NCBI GenBank assembly: GCA_021325295.1
Contig: JAJPHM010000028.1
Coordinates: forward strand, 1 to 47,930
DNA: 47,930 bases
Direction of reading: 5' to 3'
From: Nitrososphaeraceae archaeon
GTDB taxonomy: Archaea; Thermoproteota; Nitrososphaeria; Nitrososphaerales; Nitrososphaeraceae
The notes under the pieces are model-generated. The model saw nothing but the letters and a program-made list of their open reading frames with translations, made no database searches and was not told where the DNA came from. Position numbers and translations under genes: made by a program. The number at the start of each line of letters is the position of its first letter. The first letter of the stretch is position 1. Below, in pieces: positions 26,140-32,552 of the stretch.

Positions 26140-26538
26140 TTATCCGGTCTGGCGGACCAGTTTTCTTACCGAATCGACAATTTTTGAAACTTCAGCCGGT
26201 GTAGTATCTTTATCTAGTGTGATATAATAAAAGATATTTCCGCTAGGCACTGTGAGTATCTTGACTTTGCCGTTTTCGGTGATTGTATATTCTGTTGGTC
26301 CTATCGAGTTCTCAAAGCTTCGCCGGAGCTCGTTTCTGGTGGCCTCAATAAAATATTCGTTCCTTGCTTCGTCAGGTTTGAGCAGCGGTATAACCCCTTG
26401 GCGCAGCCTACCGGCCAGTGTTCTGCCAAACTTGTTGGTTATCCCGGCATAACGGATCTTGGGCGAAATACCGAGTATATCTCCGCAGTTTTCTCTGTAT
26501 TTTTGGTTATCTTCAGGTTTTTGCGATCTACCTGACAT
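26140..26538 (-). CDS. Conserved thaumarchaeal small protein, roadblock-like pattern
   Basis: The 132-residue protein has the pattern ILGISPKIRYAGITNKFG, LRQGVIPLL, YFIEATRNELRRSFE, then GPTEYTITENGKVKILTVP and a final amphipathic helix. I recognise it as one of a multi-copy family of short proteins abundant in Nitrososphaerales (annotated, I believe, as DUF6659), with a Roadblock/profilin-like alternation of strands and helices. No enzymatic residues are evident. Such proteins may act as small signalling or scaffold subunits; this is inference. It lies downstream of lysM on the same strand with a 57-nt gap, so it could be cotranscribed, though it has no obvious link to amino acid synthesis. 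Confidence 0.65.
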   Translation of the reverse strand: MSGRSQKPEDNQKYRENCGDILGISPKIRYAGITNKFGRTLAGRLRQGVIPLLKPDEARNEYFIEATRNELRRSFENSIGPTEYTITENGKVKILTVPSGNIFYYITLDKDTTPAEVSKIVDSVRKLVRQTG

Positions 26539-26595: not shown

Positions 26596-27021
26596 CTAGC
26601 GCATGGTCTTCAATATTATTACAGTGTTTGTGTCGGATACGCCTTCTATTTTGCGTATATCGTCTATGCATTTGTTTATTTCCACAATAGCCGGCGCCGC
26701 AATGATAGCGGCAATATCGTACTGCCCTGTGATTTCATAAACAACCTCAACTCCACCGAGCTTCATGAGCTTGGCAGAAACAGCAGAGGTATCAGCGCTA
26801 GAACTTACCGAGATCAGCGTTATGGCGCTTGTCTTGTCGCTTGCCCCAAGCTCAATGGTAAAGCGCTTTATGATCCCTGTATCTATCAGGTTCTTTACCC
26901 TCCTCCTTACCGCTGACTCGGACAGCCCGATTTCGTTTGCAATCTCCACAAATGGCTTGCGCGACTCTGCCTGCAATATGCGGATTATCTTCTCGTCCAC
27001 TTCATCGACGTTAACTGACAT
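26596..27021 (-). CDS. lysM: Lrp/AsnC-type regulator LysM of the LysW pathway
   Basis: LysM-type proteins are Lrp-family regulators that respond to lysine and related amino acids. The 141-residue product (ATG 27021) has an N-terminal helix-turn-helix (VDEKIIRILQ, EIANEIGLSESAVRRRVKNL) and a C-terminal RAM/ACT-like domain with VVYEITGQYDIAAII, ending NTVIILKTM. The frame is open to 27039, but ATG 27021, overlapping the lysJ stop by 11 nt, gives the normal N-terminus. It is the last gene of lysY-lysZ-lysJ-lysM. The shared operator-like blocks at 30152-30212 and 32580-32640 are its most likely targets, which would make the operon self-regulated. Confidence 0.85.
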   Translation of the reverse strand: MSVNVDEVDEKIIRILQAESRKPFVEIANEIGLSESAVRRRVKNLIDTGIIKRFTIELGASDKTSAITLISVSSSADTSAVSAKLMKLGGVEVVYEITGQYDIAAIIAAPAIVEINKCIDDIRKIEGVSDTNTVIILKTMR

Positions 27022-28192
27022 TCCGTCTCCTTTCCTCACCAGTGAGTACCGTATCCATTATTTCAAGTGCACGAGCAACAGTTGCTTCGTCCATTACAAG
27101 TGGCGGGAGCAGCCTTATGATATTCCTCCCGGAGTACAGCATCAACAGGCCGTTATTGATCCCGTCAAGCAATACATCCTTTACTTCAAAGCGCAGTTCC
27201 ACTCCAAGCATCATGCCAAGACCCCTGACATCTCTGATTATTTTGTGCTTATCTTTCAATCTCAGCAGACCTTCCTTGAATGCTCTGCCAGTGCTGGCAG
27301 CATTTTCTACAAGTTTGTCTTTGGTCAACGCATCAATTGTCGCAGAGCCGGCAGCGCATGCAAGCGGATTGCCTGCAAATGTAGACGAGTGCTCTCCAAG
27401 CTTCATTGCATCCATTATTTCTGGCTTGGCAAGTGTAAGCCCCATGGGCACACCTCCTGCAATGCCTTTTGCAAGGCACATGATATCCGGTGTCGTATTC
27501 CAGTTCTGGCCGGCCCACATCCTGCCAGTCCTTCCAAGGCCGGCCTGTATCTCGTCAAATACAAGGACAATATTTCGCCTGTCGCAGACCTCTCTGACCT
27601 GCTGTAAAAAGCCGTCAGGTGGTACGATTATGCCAGTCTCACCCTGTATTGGCTCCAGAATAACTGTTCCTATAGTGTCGTCGATTGCCCCTTCAAGCTT
27701 TGAGCTATCGCCGTATGGCACAAACTTGACTCCCTCCAAGAGTGGCATAAACGACTTGCGGTATTTTTCGTTATAGGTAACTGAAAGGGCACCGAATGTC
27801 TTGCCATGGTATGCTCCATTCATTGCAATCACGCCCGGTTTGCCCGAGTATTTGCGTGCAAATTTAAGGGCAGCTTCAATAGCTTCGGCACCGCTATTGC
27901 TGAAAAATAACTTGGTCAATCCTTTTGGAGATATGCTTGCCATCTTTTGCAGAAATTCCAGCCTTGACCGGTTGTACAGAGACATGTGGCATGTAATGAG
28001 CTTCTCGGCCTGGGCCCTGACTGCTTGGACCACTCTATCGTTGCAGTGCCCCACGAGGGCAACGCCGTATCCGCCCATGCAGTCAATGAACTCTCTTCCC
28101 GATGCATCCCATAACCTTGCACCCTTGCCCTTTTCTGCCTCCACAGGGAATCTCTGGTACAGGTTCGCCAGGTACTGGTCTTCGCCGTTCAT
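27011..28192 (-). CDS. lysJ: [LysW]-aminoadipate/glutamate semialdehyde aminotransferase
   Basis: LysJ converts LysW-bound semialdehyde to LysW-lysine or LysW-ornithine with PLP. The class-III aminotransferase fold is clear: NSGAEAIEAALKFARK, GAYHGKTFGALS, the cofactor Asp in VFDEIQAGLGRTG and the Schiff-base Lys in CLAKGIAGGVPMG (K242 from this start). I start it at ATG 28192, whose ATG overlaps the TGA of lysZ (ATGA), as at the other junctions; the frame extends to 28210. ArgD-like acetylornithine aminotransferase is the sequence relative, but the LysW context decides. In thaumarchaea the enzyme probably serves both lysine and arginine synthesis. Confidence 0.92.
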   Translation of the reverse strand: MNGEDQYLANLYQRFPVEAEKGKGARLWDASGREFIDCMGGYGVALVGHCNDRVVQAVRAQAEKLITCHMSLYNRSRLEFLQKMASISPKGLTKLFFSNSGAEAIEAALKFARKYSGKPGVIAMNGAYHGKTFGALSVTYNEKYRKSFMPLLEGVKFVPYGDSSKLEGAIDDTIGTVILEPIQGETGIIVPPDGFLQQVREVCDRRNIVLVFDEIQAGLGRTGRMWAGQNWNTTPDIMCLAKGIAGGVPMGLTLAKPEIMDAMKLGEHSSTFAGNPLACAAGSATIDALTKDKLVENAASTGRAFKEGLLRLKDKHKIIRDVRGLGMMLGVELRFEVKDVLLDGINNGLLMLYSGRNIIRLLPPLVMDEATVARALEIMDTVLTGEERRRNVS

Positions 28193-28989
28193 TTTGTAAT
28201 CACTGTGCAATTGTTGTGGGCGATCGCAGACGAGACAGGGTTCTCCACCTGGCCGGAGGCAATTATTGCTTCATTTACGCCCATATCAATGGCCTCGGTG
28301 CAGGCAAGAACCTTCTTTTCCATACCAAACCCTATCTTTGGCAGAGCGTCGCGGGCTTGTTCGACTGTCATTCTGTCTACCAGCTTGTTATTGAGTATCA
28401 GGCCATTTACGTTTGTAATAAAGACCACCTTGTCAGCCTTTAGTGCGCTTGCAACGTATGCGGCAGCCCTGTCGCCGTCTACATTGAGAAAGTCAAATTC
28501 CTCGCTCAGAGCGATGGGTGAGATTACAGGGACATAGCCACTATCCAGCATTGTATTGATAAGTGATGGGTCGACTGAGCTTATCTTGCCAGTGTAGCCT
28601 CCATCTATTGCCATTTTTCTTCCCTTGTCATTGATCACAATAAGCTTCTTTTTGCGTTCTGCCTTCATGGTTGCTCCGTCTATTCCAGTCAGGCCTACGG
28701 CCCTTACCCCATTTCGTACAAGCATACCTACAATAACTTTGTTTATCTTGCCTGACATGACCATTGTGTATATCTCGGCTGTCTCCTTGTCTGTATATCT
28801 GCTCCTGACGCCGCCCGGGGATACGACAAACTTTTGCTCTTTTCCCATCTTGTTGGCAGTGTTTGTGACTTCTTTTCCCCCGCCGTGCACAAAAACCAGT
28901 TTGCCTTTATCTGAGAGCGACTTGAAGTCAGCAAGGGCTGTCTGGTGCAGCCCATCTACCACGCTTCCGCCTATCTTGATTACTATCAT
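28189..28989 (-). CDS. lysZ: [LysW]-aminoadipate/glutamate kinase
   Basis: LysZ phosphorylates the side-chain carboxyl of the LysW-bound amino acid. The 266-residue amino-acid-kinase-family protein has MIVIKIGGSVVDG at the start, FVHGGGKEV (glycine-rich substrate loop), VNVDGDRAAAYVA-type LNVDGDRAAAYVA and the nucleotide segment VVFITNVNGL. It resembles ArgB but sits between lysY and lysJ. It overlaps lysY upstream by 4 nt (ATGA) and lysJ downstream by 4 nt, so translation is tightly coupled. Whether it takes aminoadipate, glutamate or both cannot be told from sequence alone. Confidence 0.92.
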   Translation of the reverse strand: MIVIKIGGSVVDGLHQTALADFKSLSDKGKLVFVHGGGKEVTNTANKMGKEQKFVVSPGGVRSRYTDKETAEIYTMVMSGKINKVIVGMLVRNGVRAVGLTGIDGATMKAERKKKLIVINDKGRKMAIDGGYTGKISSVDPSLINTMLDSGYVPVISPIALSEEFDFLNVDGDRAAAYVASALKADKVVFITNVNGLILNNKLVDRMTVEQARDALPKIGFGMEKKVLACTEAIDMGVNEAIIASGQVENPVSSAIAHNNCTVITK

Positions 28990-30038
28990 ACTGGTGTCAG
29001 CGGTGTGAACCTTAATCCTTCGGTCTCGTCATAGCCAAACATCACGTTCATGTTCTGTATTGCAGAGCCTGCAGCGCCTTTCATCAGGTTGTCAGAAGCA
29101 GAAAGAGCGACCACTCGCTGGTTATGCTCGTCTATATCAAACCCAACATCACAAAAGTTTGAGCCCACTACGAACTTGGGGTCTGGGAATTTGTACAGCC
29201 CTTTCTTGTCGCGGATCAGCCTGACAAACGGCTCGCCTTTGTACGAATTTCTATACATTTTCCACAGGTCAAGTTCTTCCACCTTTCGCTTGAGGAAGGT
29301 ATGGTTCGTAGTGAGGATGCCCCTGACAATATTGACAGCATGCGGGCTCATACTTACCCGTATGTTTTGCTTGGCTATCAAGGAAAGCTCCTGCTCAATT
29401 TCACCTGTGTGCCTGTGCTTTGCAGGCTTGTACGGCCTGACTACGCCATATCGCATGGCATGATGCGTTCCGGCATTGGCCTTCTGGCCTGCGCCAGACG
29501 AGCCAATTTTGCTGTCCACCACAATGTGGCCTGTGTCTATGAGGTTATTTTCAATAAGGGGCTTTATGGCAAGAAGTGAAGTAACGGCCATACACCCGGG
29601 GCATGAGACAAGCTGGGCTTTCTTGATTTCTTCGCGGTGAAGTTCCGGCACACCATAGACAGACTTGGACAGCATCTCCGGGAATGGATGCTCCCACCCA
29701 TACCAGTTGACATAGTCTTTCGGATTTTTTAAGCGAAAATCAGCAGACAGGTCTATAACCTTCATTCCTCTGTCATACAGGTCTTTTACTATCTTGTTTG
29801 CCTTGCCGTGCGGGACAGAAGTAAATACAAGATCACAAGAGCTTGACAATTTGTCCATGTCCATTGGCGAGAAGGTAATATCTATGAAGCCTTTCAGGCT
29901 TGGGTGTACTCTATGTACATACTCTCCTGCCTTCTGTCGGGATGTCACCATACTGACCTCAACTTTTGGGTGTGTGACAAGCAAGCGCAAAAGCTCGCCG
30001 CCTACATAACCTGACGCACCTACAACTCCAACTTTCAT
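28986..30038 (-). CDS. lysY: [LysW]-aminoadipyl/glutamyl phosphate reductase
   Basis: LysY reduces the LysW-bound acyl phosphate to the semialdehyde with NADPH. The 350 residues show the ArgC/LysY pattern: nucleotide-binding GASGYVGGELLR (7-18), VDLSADFRL-type IDLSADFRL, the catalytic Cys149 in SCPGCMAVTS, and the His-containing segment KHRHTGEIEQEL. It is the first gene of the lysYZJM unit. Upstream is a 173-nt gap to lysX that holds an operator/promoter block nearly identical to that before argG, and a 39-codon frame whose TGA overlaps this ATG. The predicted transcription start lies near 30125-30131, leaving a leader of about 90 nt, long for this genome. Confidence 0.93.
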   Translation of the reverse strand: MKVGVVGASGYVGGELLRLLVTHPKVEVSMVTSRQKAGEYVHRVHPSLKGFIDITFSPMDMDKLSSSCDLVFTSVPHGKANKIVKDLYDRGMKVIDLSADFRLKNPKDYVNWYGWEHPFPEMLSKSVYGVPELHREEIKKAQLVSCPGCMAVTSLLAIKPLIENNLIDTGHIVVDSKIGSSGAGQKANAGTHHAMRYGVVRPYKPAKHRHTGEIEQELSLIAKQNIRVSMSPHAVNIVRGILTTNHTFLKRKVEELDLWKMYRNSYKGEPFVRLIRDKKGLYKFPDPKFVVGSNFCDVGFDIDEHNQRVVALSASDNLMKGAAGSAIQNMNVMFGYDETEGLRFTPLTPV

Positions 30039-30154: not shown

Positions 30155-30212
30155 TTATATTTTTTGGTCAGGAATGACCTATTTTGGGTCAATTATGGCC
30201 GTTCGTGGTCAT
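30152..30212 (-). promoter_or_regulatory. lysY promoter and putative LysM operator
   Basis: On the minus strand, a TATA box (about 30153-30160) is directly preceded by the inverted repeat GGTCA-GGAA-TGACC (30166-30179). Two more GGTCA half-sites lie at 30187-30191 and 30207-30211, about 20-21 nt apart, which is two helical turns. The block 30152-30181 is identical over 30 nt to 32580-32609 ahead of argG. Spaced half-sites on one face of the helix suit an Lrp-type multimer. LysM, encoded at the end of this operon, is the proposed ligand. Confidence 0.7.
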
Positions 30213-31072
30213 TACCTCTTGGCCACGCTTATGGCATATTCCACCATCGCGCCAGCGATATCTGCATTTGAAACGCTTGCTGCCCCCCGAAACTCGACTG
30301 TATTGTTGACCTCGTGCACAACCAAACCCTTTTCGCTATCTTCCATCAGGTCGACTCCCAGTATCCCCCCACCAACGGCCTTTGCAGCTTTCAGGGCAAT
30401 CTCCTCAAGCTCGGCTGTAATTGGAGCCGGCTCTGCCTTTCCGCCCCGAGCCACATTTGTCCTCCACTCATTCTCTGCGGAATATCGGTATATGGCGGCA
30501 ACCACTCTATCCCCTACAACTATACATCTCAGGTCCCGGGGAGGTCTTTTGACCATTTCCTGCACATAGTAAATTCTTGCAAGTGGGCTATCATTTTCTT
30601 CTCTCATTTCTACAATCATGTTTGCTACTTCTTCGTCACGCAAGGGAAATACTCCTCTGCCCCAGGAGCCTACAATTGGCTTGAGGACAAGCGGAAAGCC
30701 AGTCTTGCCTATTGCCTCCATAGCAGATTCTGCACTGAATGCAAATGTAGTCTTGGGGGTCTTGATTTTATGCTTGGCCAATACCAGCGATGTTACAAGC
30801 TTGTTGCCACATATTTCACCAACCTTGAATTTGTTGATTACAGAAAAGCCAAGGAATTCAAGGCATGCGGTGAGGTACAGGCCCCTGTAATGGCTGACAC
30901 TTCTCTGCAGTATGACGTCTCCCAGCAGAAAATCTTTCTTTTTGCTATCTGTGCTGATGGTAATTGCTTTGGCATCAATGATCTGTGCCTTGATGCCCAT
31001 CTTCAAGGCCTTGTCGTACAGGGCCTTTTCTTCAAAGCGTACCTTGTCATAAAGTACGCAGATTTCCACCAA
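30212..31072 (-). CDS. lysX: LysW--aminoadipate/glutamate ligase (ATP-grasp)
   Basis: LysX or ArgX joins the amino group of aminoadipate or glutamate to the C-terminal residue of LysW. The 286-residue ATP-grasp protein has NKFKVGEICGNKLVTS, the ATP-binding VLKPIVGSWGRGV, the YYVQEMVKRPPRDLR strand and the metal-binding VHEVNNTVEFRG near 258-270. The TTG start lies 11 nt after the lysW stop, so argG-lysW-lysX form one unit. Only one ligase is visible in this window; archaea that make both amino acids through LysW may have separate LysX and ArgX. The sequence alone does not settle which substrate this copy takes. Confidence 0.9.
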   Translation of the reverse strand: MVEICVLYDKVRFEEKALYDKALKMGIKAQIIDAKAITISTDSKKKDFLLGDVILQRSVSHYRGLYLTACLEFLGFSVINKFKVGEICGNKLVTSLVLAKHKIKTPKTTFAFSAESAMEAIGKTGFPLVLKPIVGSWGRGVFPLRDEEVANMIVEMREENDSPLARIYYVQEMVKRPPRDLRCIVVGDRVVAAIYRYSAENEWRTNVARGGKAEPAPITAELEEIALKAAKAVGGGILGVDLMEDSEKGLVVHEVNNTVEFRGAASVSNADIAGAMVEYAISVAKR

Positions 31073-31083
31073 TTAGACTCAAC

Positions 31084-31257
31084 TCATTGTCCCCAATCTT
31101 CGCCCACTGTTTCTGCCGGCTTTAGACTTACCTTGTCCCCTGTTTTTGATGCGATTTCAAAATCTCCTCCGCAATCAGGGCAGGTGACTATCTCACCTGC
31201 CACGGCATCTTCTGGGACAGGAATCTCGGCTCCACATTCTTGGCATTCTACTTTCAT
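31084..31257 (-). CDS. lysW: Amino-group carrier protein LysW, C-terminal Gln
   Basis: LysW is the small acidic carrier on which lysine and arginine (or ornithine) are built. The 57-residue protein has a zinc ribbon formed by CQEC (5-8) and CPDC (26-29), an acidic middle and the characteristic C-terminal EDWG. The final codon is CAA, so the last residue is Gln57, whereas the family ends EDWGE and uses the side-chain carboxyl of that Glu to attach the amino acid. Its ATG overlaps the argG stop (ATGA, 31257-31254), and lysX follows 11 nt later. Either the carrier needs deamidation before use, or a single base (GAA to CAA) was misread. Too short for simple ORF filters. Confidence 0.9.
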   Translation of the reverse strand: MKVECQECGAEIPVPEDAVAGEIVTCPDCGGDFEIASKTGDKVSLKPAETVGEDWGQ

Positions 31258-32552
31258 CTTGTTCTCTCTCCCTCCTTGATTTTTCGTTTTGCCATGGTCT
31301 GGTTTTCTCCACTTGTTGCCGACCTATTGCTCTGGCCTGCAGCCAAAGTTCTGTCTTGATTGTGGTAAGAAGACGCTGTCAGCGCATTTGCAATCACCGA
31401 TTGCAGCCCCCACAGCTCGACAAATCCTTTTGCCAGAGTCTGGTCAAATGTTGACCCAGCGGCGTATGTTGCCAGATCATTTTTGTAGAGTGAATATCTT
31501 GATTCTCTACCTACAACGCGTAGGGAACCTCTATGCATTTTTATCTTAACTTTTCCGCTAACACGGATCTGTGTCGCATCTATAAACTTATCCAAATCAG
31601 ATCTAAGCGGGTCCTGCCAGAGGCCTGAATAGGCAAGCCAGCTCCACTGCTCATCAACGAGCCGCTTGAAGGAAAGCTCATGTTTTGTGAGGACCATTTT
31701 TTCCAAGTCCCTGTGGGCCTCGATGATGGCAATTGCAGCAGGGGCTTCATAGACTTCCCTTGACTTTATTCCCACTACTCTGTCTTCTATATGATCAACG
31801 ATTCCAACTCCAAAGGACCCGGCCTTGTCACCTACGTATTGAATCAGGTCAACAATGTCCATGCGCTTGCCGTCAGCTGCCACTGGCACGCCAGCCTCAA
31901 AATCTATGTCAAGGTATCCGGCCTTGTCGTTATGCAGATTAACAAATTGAAATGCATCCTCCGGCGGCTCAAAAAAGGCATCTTCTATATTGCCACCCTC
32001 AACTGCTCTCCCCCATAGATTCAGGTCTATGCTGTATTTTTTCGCCTCAACGCTGATAGGTATGTTCTGCTCTTTGGCAAACTTTATTTCGACATCCCGG
32101 GTCAGGTTCATATCTCTTATTGGAGCAATTATCTGAATCCCCGGAGCCAGAGCACGCATTGTAATATCGAATCTAATCTGATCATTTCCCTTGCCCGTGC
32201 AGCCATGCGCCAGAGCTTTTGCGCCTTCGGCGGTTGCTACCTGAACGGCCTTTGCAGCAATGAGAGGCCTTGCAAGGGCGGTTGCAAGCGGGTACTTGCC
32301 CTGATAAAGCCCATTTGCCTTGATGCTAGGGATAATGTAATCTCTGGCAAACTCCTCTTTGGCGTCGATATAAACGTGCTTGACTGCCCCTACTGCTTTT
32401 GCCTTCTTCTCTATCTCGACAAAGTCGTCGTCCTGCCCGCAGTCTACCGTTACAGTAATTACATCAAGTTTGTGCAGTGTTTGCAGATACCTGATGCAGA
32501 CAGAAGTGTCCAGGCCGCCAGAATACGCAAGAACAACCTTGTCTTTGGCCAT
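31254..32552 (-). CDS. argG: Argininosuccinate synthase
   Basis: ArgG joins citrulline and aspartate with ATP. The 432-residue protein has the PP-loop AYSGGLDTS (9-17), the GCTGKGNDQIRFD segment typical of the enzyme, and the C-terminal GRESRYSLYKNDLATYAAG. It carries about 30 extra residues at the C-terminus rich in Ser, Asn, Gln and Arg (SNRSATSGENQ, then KRKIKEGERTR), probably disordered. It starts the argG-lysW-lysX unit. The TATA box (about 32581-32588) is about 32 nt before the ATG, and the operator-like repeat lies just upstream of it. Co-location with lysW ties this LysW pathway to arginine synthesis. Confidence 0.96.
   Translation of the reverse strand: MAKDKVVLAYSGGLDTSVCIRYLQTLHKLDVITVTVDCGQDDDFVEIEKKAKAVGAVKHVYIDAKEEFARDYIIPSIKANGLYQGKYPLATALARPLIAAKAVQVATAEGAKALAHGCTGKGNDQIRFDITMRALAPGIQIIAPIRDMNLTRDVEIKFAKEQNIPISVEAKKYSIDLNLWGRAVEGGNIEDAFFEPPEDAFQFVNLHNDKAGYLDIDFEAGVPVAADGKRMDIVDLIQYVGDKAGSFGVGIVDHIEDRVVGIKSREVYEAPAAIAIIEAHRDLEKMVLTKHELSFKRLVDEQWSWLAYSGLWQDPLRSDLDKFIDATQIRVSGKVKIKMHRGSLRVVGRESRYSLYKNDLATYAAGSTFDQTLAKGFVELWGLQSVIANALTASSYHNQDRTLAAGQSNRSATSGENQTMAKRKIKEGERTR

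Follow-up and report, generated by a model that had tools for sequence, protein, structure and literature searches.

How can a carrier protein work when the residue to which its cargo should be attached is not the one encoded? In studied systems, the gamma-carboxyl of the terminal Glu of LysW or ArgW is the attachment point used by LysX/ArgX (PMC10433800), and the lysW gene (31084-31257, minus strand) of the 47,930-nt stretch of Nitrososphaeraceae DNA analysed here (the window) encodes Gln at that site. Its 57-amino-acid product, MKVECQECGAEIPVPEDAVAGEIVTCPDCGGDFEIASKTGDKVSLKPAETVGEDWGQ, ends in GEDWGQ; the terminal codon, CAA (Gln57), lies at 31089-31087 and is followed by a TGA stop at 31084-31086. 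Reading of the minus strand confirmed the initial annotation, in which the EDWGQ end and its CAA codon had been reported, and the description there of an otherwise intact protein was also borne out: a zinc ribbon, two CxxC pairs, EDWG, and an operon with LysX-Z-Y-J are all present. The protein scored above the cut-offs of both Pfam LysW (PF21344; 52.9 bits, cut-off 27) and NCBIfam carrier_LysW_Arch (NF041070; 94.4 bits, cut-off 75). The LysW/ArgW proteins of Thermus, Sulfolobus, Thermococcus, and Natrinema share its zinc ribbon, CxxC pairs, EDWG tail, operon, and partner motifs; however, they have as attachment point the C-terminal Glu expected of such carriers, where the window protein has Gln. 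By homology and gene context it is a variant LysW, and many members of the family share its terminal Gln. Loading with aminoadipate or glutamate on a gamma-carboxyl is predicted.

The gene is the arg-type paralogue, adjoining argG and ArgX in a cluster that lies entirely on the minus strand. The stop of argG (argininosuccinate synthase, 31254-32552) overlaps the lysW start. The ATP-grasp ligase lysX/argX (30212-31072; LysX_arch TIGR02144, 310 bits), whose true start is probably a GTG one codon in, keeps the motifs GSWGR, RDLR, and EVNN, and its signature EVNNTVEFRGA falls on the glutamate (ArgX) side within the compared set. The other members are the semialdehyde dehydrogenase lysY/argC (28986-30038; TIGR01850), the [LysW]-aminoadipate/[LysW]-glutamate kinase lysZ/argB (28189-28989; NF010662, above cut-off), the aminotransferase lysJ/argD (27011-28210), and a LysM-type Lrp/AsnC regulator (26596-27039; NF040947, above cut-off).

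The terminal Gln had been taken for a local oddity, and this view did not survive comparison. A second LysW of the source genome, encoded on another contig (contig 14) in the order homocitrate synthase, LysW, LysX, LysK, also ends in EDWGQ and uses the other Gln codon, CAG. No third LysW in this genome exceeded the PF21344 cut-off, so no Glu-ended back-up copy was found. Comparison of the C-terminal residue among relatives, proposed in the initial annotation, gave a divided answer: the nearest relatives (L003-L012) have Gln, and Glu was found only in some members of the family (e.g., L067, L105, and L122). Since the paralogue uses a different codon and relatives share the residue, sequencing error was ruled out as its source. 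Degeneration of the gene was likewise ruled out, considering that EDWG is invariant and that the Gln-ended protein is the sole LysW copy in several genomes.

Among 193 LysW copies compared, 102 end in Gln, 91 in Glu, and none in any other residue, a set whose Gln:Glu ratio is no estimate of frequency because it takes in loci picked by the EDWGE pattern as well as overlapping loci of the same genomes. Both synonymous codons are used for each residue, EDWG is present in 193 of 193, and the restriction to Gln and Glu holds likewise when only loci retrieved by protein similarity (L003-L031 and L083-L162) are taken. When 398 genomes of the phylum were scanned for exact DNA matches, 87 contained EDWGQ-stop and 246 contained EDWGE-stop, a few matches not being real since the stop pattern used (TRR) also admits TGG. 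EDWGK-stop, in which Lys is a single transition from Glu, matched three times in the 398 genomes and never in a LysW frame. Glu is the last residue of each of the three LysW sequences in the PDB. The terminal Gln is encoded, conserved at the protein level, and replaceable by Glu alone. A search of the open literature, the reach of which did not extend to the primary LysX/LysW structural papers, turned up neither EDWGQ nor a Gln-ended LysW; the Gln-ended form is apparently undescribed in the literature searched, and an earlier remark may exist.

Two LysW copies are usual in ammonia-oxidising archaea: one of arg-type, adjoining argG/ArgX, and one of lys-type, flanked by homocitrate synthase on one side and LysX-LysK on the other. 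Nitrosopumilaceae-like genomes combine a Glu-ended arg-type with a Gln-ended lys-type; in the source genome and its relative G049 both copies end in Gln. Across two-copy loci, the arg/lys combinations were Glu/Gln (25), Glu/Glu (4), Gln/Glu (3), and Gln/Gln (2). Nitrosocosmicus-like genomes (coded g2, with a LysX that groups with named Nitrosocosmicus loci) have lost the arg-type LysW and keep both ArgX and LysX with a single, Gln-ended LysW. A single Gln-ended LysW also occurs in the families coded f25, f30, and f48. The two states can be found side by side in one genus, as in f48 (Gln in G318, Glu in G283) and in genus g91 of f25 (Gln in G310 and G330; Glu in G256, G290, and G335).

Some individual loci were also recorded. 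In a small Nitrosopumilus group (L135, L154, and G162:C47:30435-30452) the lys-type LysW has apparently gone from Gln to Glu (GAG TGA), and both copies end in Glu. Three Nitrososphaeraceae loci (L092, L096, and L103) invert the marine pattern, with Gln on the arg-type and Glu on the lys-type. The second LysW of genome G084 is divergent, ends in Gln, and lies close to the end of a contig (L072:7433-7606, minus strand), with no LysX pathway gene seen on the remaining contig.

When the terminal residue of the adjacent LysW is mapped onto a tree of 157 LysX proteins, it changes at least 13 times, and nine independent Gln/Glu pairs lie on strongly supported branches. In three of four clades switches and silent changes in the last codons had roughly similar frequencies, with 3, 5, and 4 Gln/Glu switches versus 1 to 13 silent changes, and in the fourth, the arg-type LysW of Nitrosopumilaceae, there was no switch in 40 rows versus 0 to 4 silent changes; the counts are parsimony lower bounds, and the comparison holds to an order of magnitude only. 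The Gln state is also kept over long branches of the tree. Gln and Glu swap freely at the LysW terminus, even within one genus.

The Gln-ended form must, moreover, serve lysine synthesis, since DapB is missing from organisms whose sole LysW ends in Gln (Nitrosocosmicus and several other archaea). DapB was not found in 10 of 11 genomes tested, including all those tested with a Gln-ended LysW, and the eleventh, the Glu-only G283, gave a 19-bit match only; a bypass through the diaminopimelate route was ruled out on this ground, although Nitrososphaeraceae do encode the LysA-like protein described below. Nitrosocosmicus strains have been grown in mineral medium or called autotrophic (PMC6657660, PMC13245735); these were enrichments, which weakens an argument from prototrophy. 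In Natrinema, where the terminal Glu proved essential, the ArgW substitution E54A produced an arginine auxotroph (PMC10433800). However, E54A is not E54Q, and the auxotrophy gives no proof that Gln blocks ligation. A LysA-like protein of the diaminopimelate decarboxylase family, scoring ~240 bits and so below the curated cut-off of 298, was seen in DapB-less Nitrososphaeraceae (G000:C24:106476-107789, minus strand; also G007, G032, G041, and G049) and was absent from the Nitrosopumilaceae-like G168.

A LysX that treated Gln in its own way would be expected to carry residues tracking the end of LysW. We found no fixed differences between LysX proteins beside Gln and those beside Glu, and no LysX residue that tracks the state of LysW: in 1,723 column-by-residue tests the best, at the LysX C-terminus, reached 3.5 of 9, the nine pairs giving modest power. 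Thirty-four LysX positions are at least 97% identical in both sets, including GSWGR, RDxR, E254, and N256, and GSWGR is the motif said to recognise EDWGE (PMC10433800). Since no LysX position follows the terminal residue of LysW, the ligase most likely meets the same Glu end in Gln and Glu organisms alike, as judged from these alignments. LysK, for its part, passed the cut-off in 26 of the 27 genomes, with Gln and Glu alike, and occurred as a fragment in the twenty-seventh; since Glu genomes have it too, its presence is uninformative as a test of co-occurrence. Its putative metal-site residues are invariant, and no LysK column tracked the Gln/Glu state across seven pairs, again with modest power. 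The best PDB match of the source-genome LysK is the [LysW]-lysine hydrolase 5xoy (E = 2e-49). In ammonia-oxidising archaea the lys-type LysW forms a contiguous run with LysX and LysK.

These observations bear on the suggestion in the initial annotation of a Pup-like deamidation, which proved the best fit: only Gln and Glu are tolerated, LysX shows no adaptation, a sole LysW ending in Gln has to be functional, and the two residues swap freely. The deamidation itself we infer. According to this proposal, the lysW product would be a precursor, LysW(Gln), whose C-terminal Gln would be hydrolysed to Glu before ligation; ArgX or LysX would then ligate glutamate or aminoadipate to the newly formed gamma-carboxyl, LysZ-LysY-LysJ would process the loaded substrate, and LysK would release ornithine or lysine. 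That deamidation ahead of ligation is what makes the interchange possible seems probable from the comparative pattern, and the explanation as a whole, a Gln-ended precursor made into a working carrier by Gln-to-Glu hydrolysis, we hold to be on balance the likelier account. Against it stands the arg-type LysW of Nitrosopumilaceae: if all lineages mature Gln, its complete lack of switches versus the mostly Gln-ended lys-type is unexplained. Ammonia-oxidising archaea rank among Earth's most abundant microbes, and, if the proposal is true, their lysine and arginine synthesis runs on a carrier whose gene does not specify the attachment residue. Confirmation would add an unrecognised maturation step to the LysW pathway, and genome annotation would then need to count Gln-ended LysW as functional.

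A deamidase would then be needed, for which the initial annotation named no enzyme, and LysK is the most economical candidate, since hydrolysis of an amide at this very position of LysW is its established chemistry. In the known reaction it cleaves N-linked lysine at the gamma-carbonyl of the C-terminal residue; in the proposed one, the leaving group would be a plain NH2. Its candidacy also draws on its constant presence, its position next to the Gln-ended lys-type LysW in ammonia-oxidising archaea, and the identity of its closest structure. The source-genome protein is like 5xoy, and activity on a plain Gln amide would be an addition to the known function and, if confirmed, a new activity predicted for LysK. 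We regard this assignment as tentative, and as weaker than deamidation itself.

Two other explanations were considered, both of which we regard as unlikely. LysX/ArgX might use the Gln form directly, by ligation to the alpha-carboxylate, as RimK does, or by exchange of the side-chain amide, with no separate deamidation. Many RimK-family ligases make alpha-linked bonds on their targets, the window LysX also matches RimK alpha-glutamate ligase models in profile searches, and Gln and Glu would be interchangeable with no further enzyme. However, studied LysX/ArgX act on the gamma-carboxyl, as noted above, and no LysX position differs between Gln and Glu partners. Moreover, Asp, Lys, or Ala might then be tolerated too, yet these were never seen, and the downstream enzymes would face two geometries. 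It is about equally improbable that a dedicated deamidase other than LysK, encoded elsewhere, converts LysW(Gln) to LysW(Glu). The conversion does need a hydrolase, which need not lie in the operon, but only pathway genes are conserved beside Gln-type lysW, with no extra hydrolase gene seen in the cluster. In addition, the Dop/PafA family (PF03136) was absent from all 16 Gln genomes searched, with a positive Corynebacterium control, and within-genus switching in several families would require that such a gene be present everywhere already.

The remaining two can be dealt with briefly. That the Gln-ended protein is a decoy, storage, or regulatory form while a Glu-ended copy does the work accords with the one-of-each arrangement of Nitrosopumilaceae-like genomes, but is very improbable and largely refuted, since both LysW copies of the source genome and of G049 end in Gln, the only LysW of Nitrosocosmicus, f25, f30, and G318 does so too, the Gln copy in ammonia-oxidising archaea is the one beside LysX-LysK, and all four combinations exist in two-copy loci. 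Least credible of all is that translation places some Glu at the Gln codon, of which a catalytic carrier may need little: indirect aminoacylation is general in archaea, Gln-tRNA being made from Glu-tRNA(Gln), but the arrangement would be wasteful and strong selection back to Glu would be expected, whereas Gln persists over long branches.

Returning to maturation by deamidation, the closest parallel is the Pup-Dop-PafA system of actinobacteria. Pup ends in Gln or Glu according to species and is joined through an isopeptide bond at the gamma-carboxylate, and Dop, which deamidates PupQ and also cleaves Pup conjugates, persists in species in which Pup already has a terminal Glu (PMC3511204, PMC7947786). 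The C-terminal Gln or Glu by lineage is common to Pup and LysW, an analogy and no sign of membership, since the systems are not homologous: the window LysW is a zinc ribbon, LysX an ATP-grasp enzyme, and LysK an M20-type metallopeptidase. Pup tags proteins whereas LysW carries a metabolite, and deamidation has been shown for Pup whereas for LysW it is proposed here. As Dop/PafA homologues are absent, the likeness would be a case of convergence. If confirmed, it would constitute a second, unrelated instance of the Pup rule, by which an isopeptide carrier ends in either Gln or Glu. The furthest extension, that LysW in many lineages is an inactive Gln-ended precursor and LysK a dual deamidase and isopeptidase, an independently evolved, non-homologous counterpart of Pup-Dop that acts on a carrier of biosynthesis, we consider rather doubtful.

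Two minor observations were made on genes of these loci. The LysX of G294 (L074:8000-9004, plus strand), which lies beside a Gln-ended LysW, has GSHGR in place of GSWGR, the only such case noticed. In the window, a small protein encoded at 26140-26538 on the minus strand, beside the arginine/lysine cluster, gave a weak match to DUF6659, below the cut-off, and is also present in G049.
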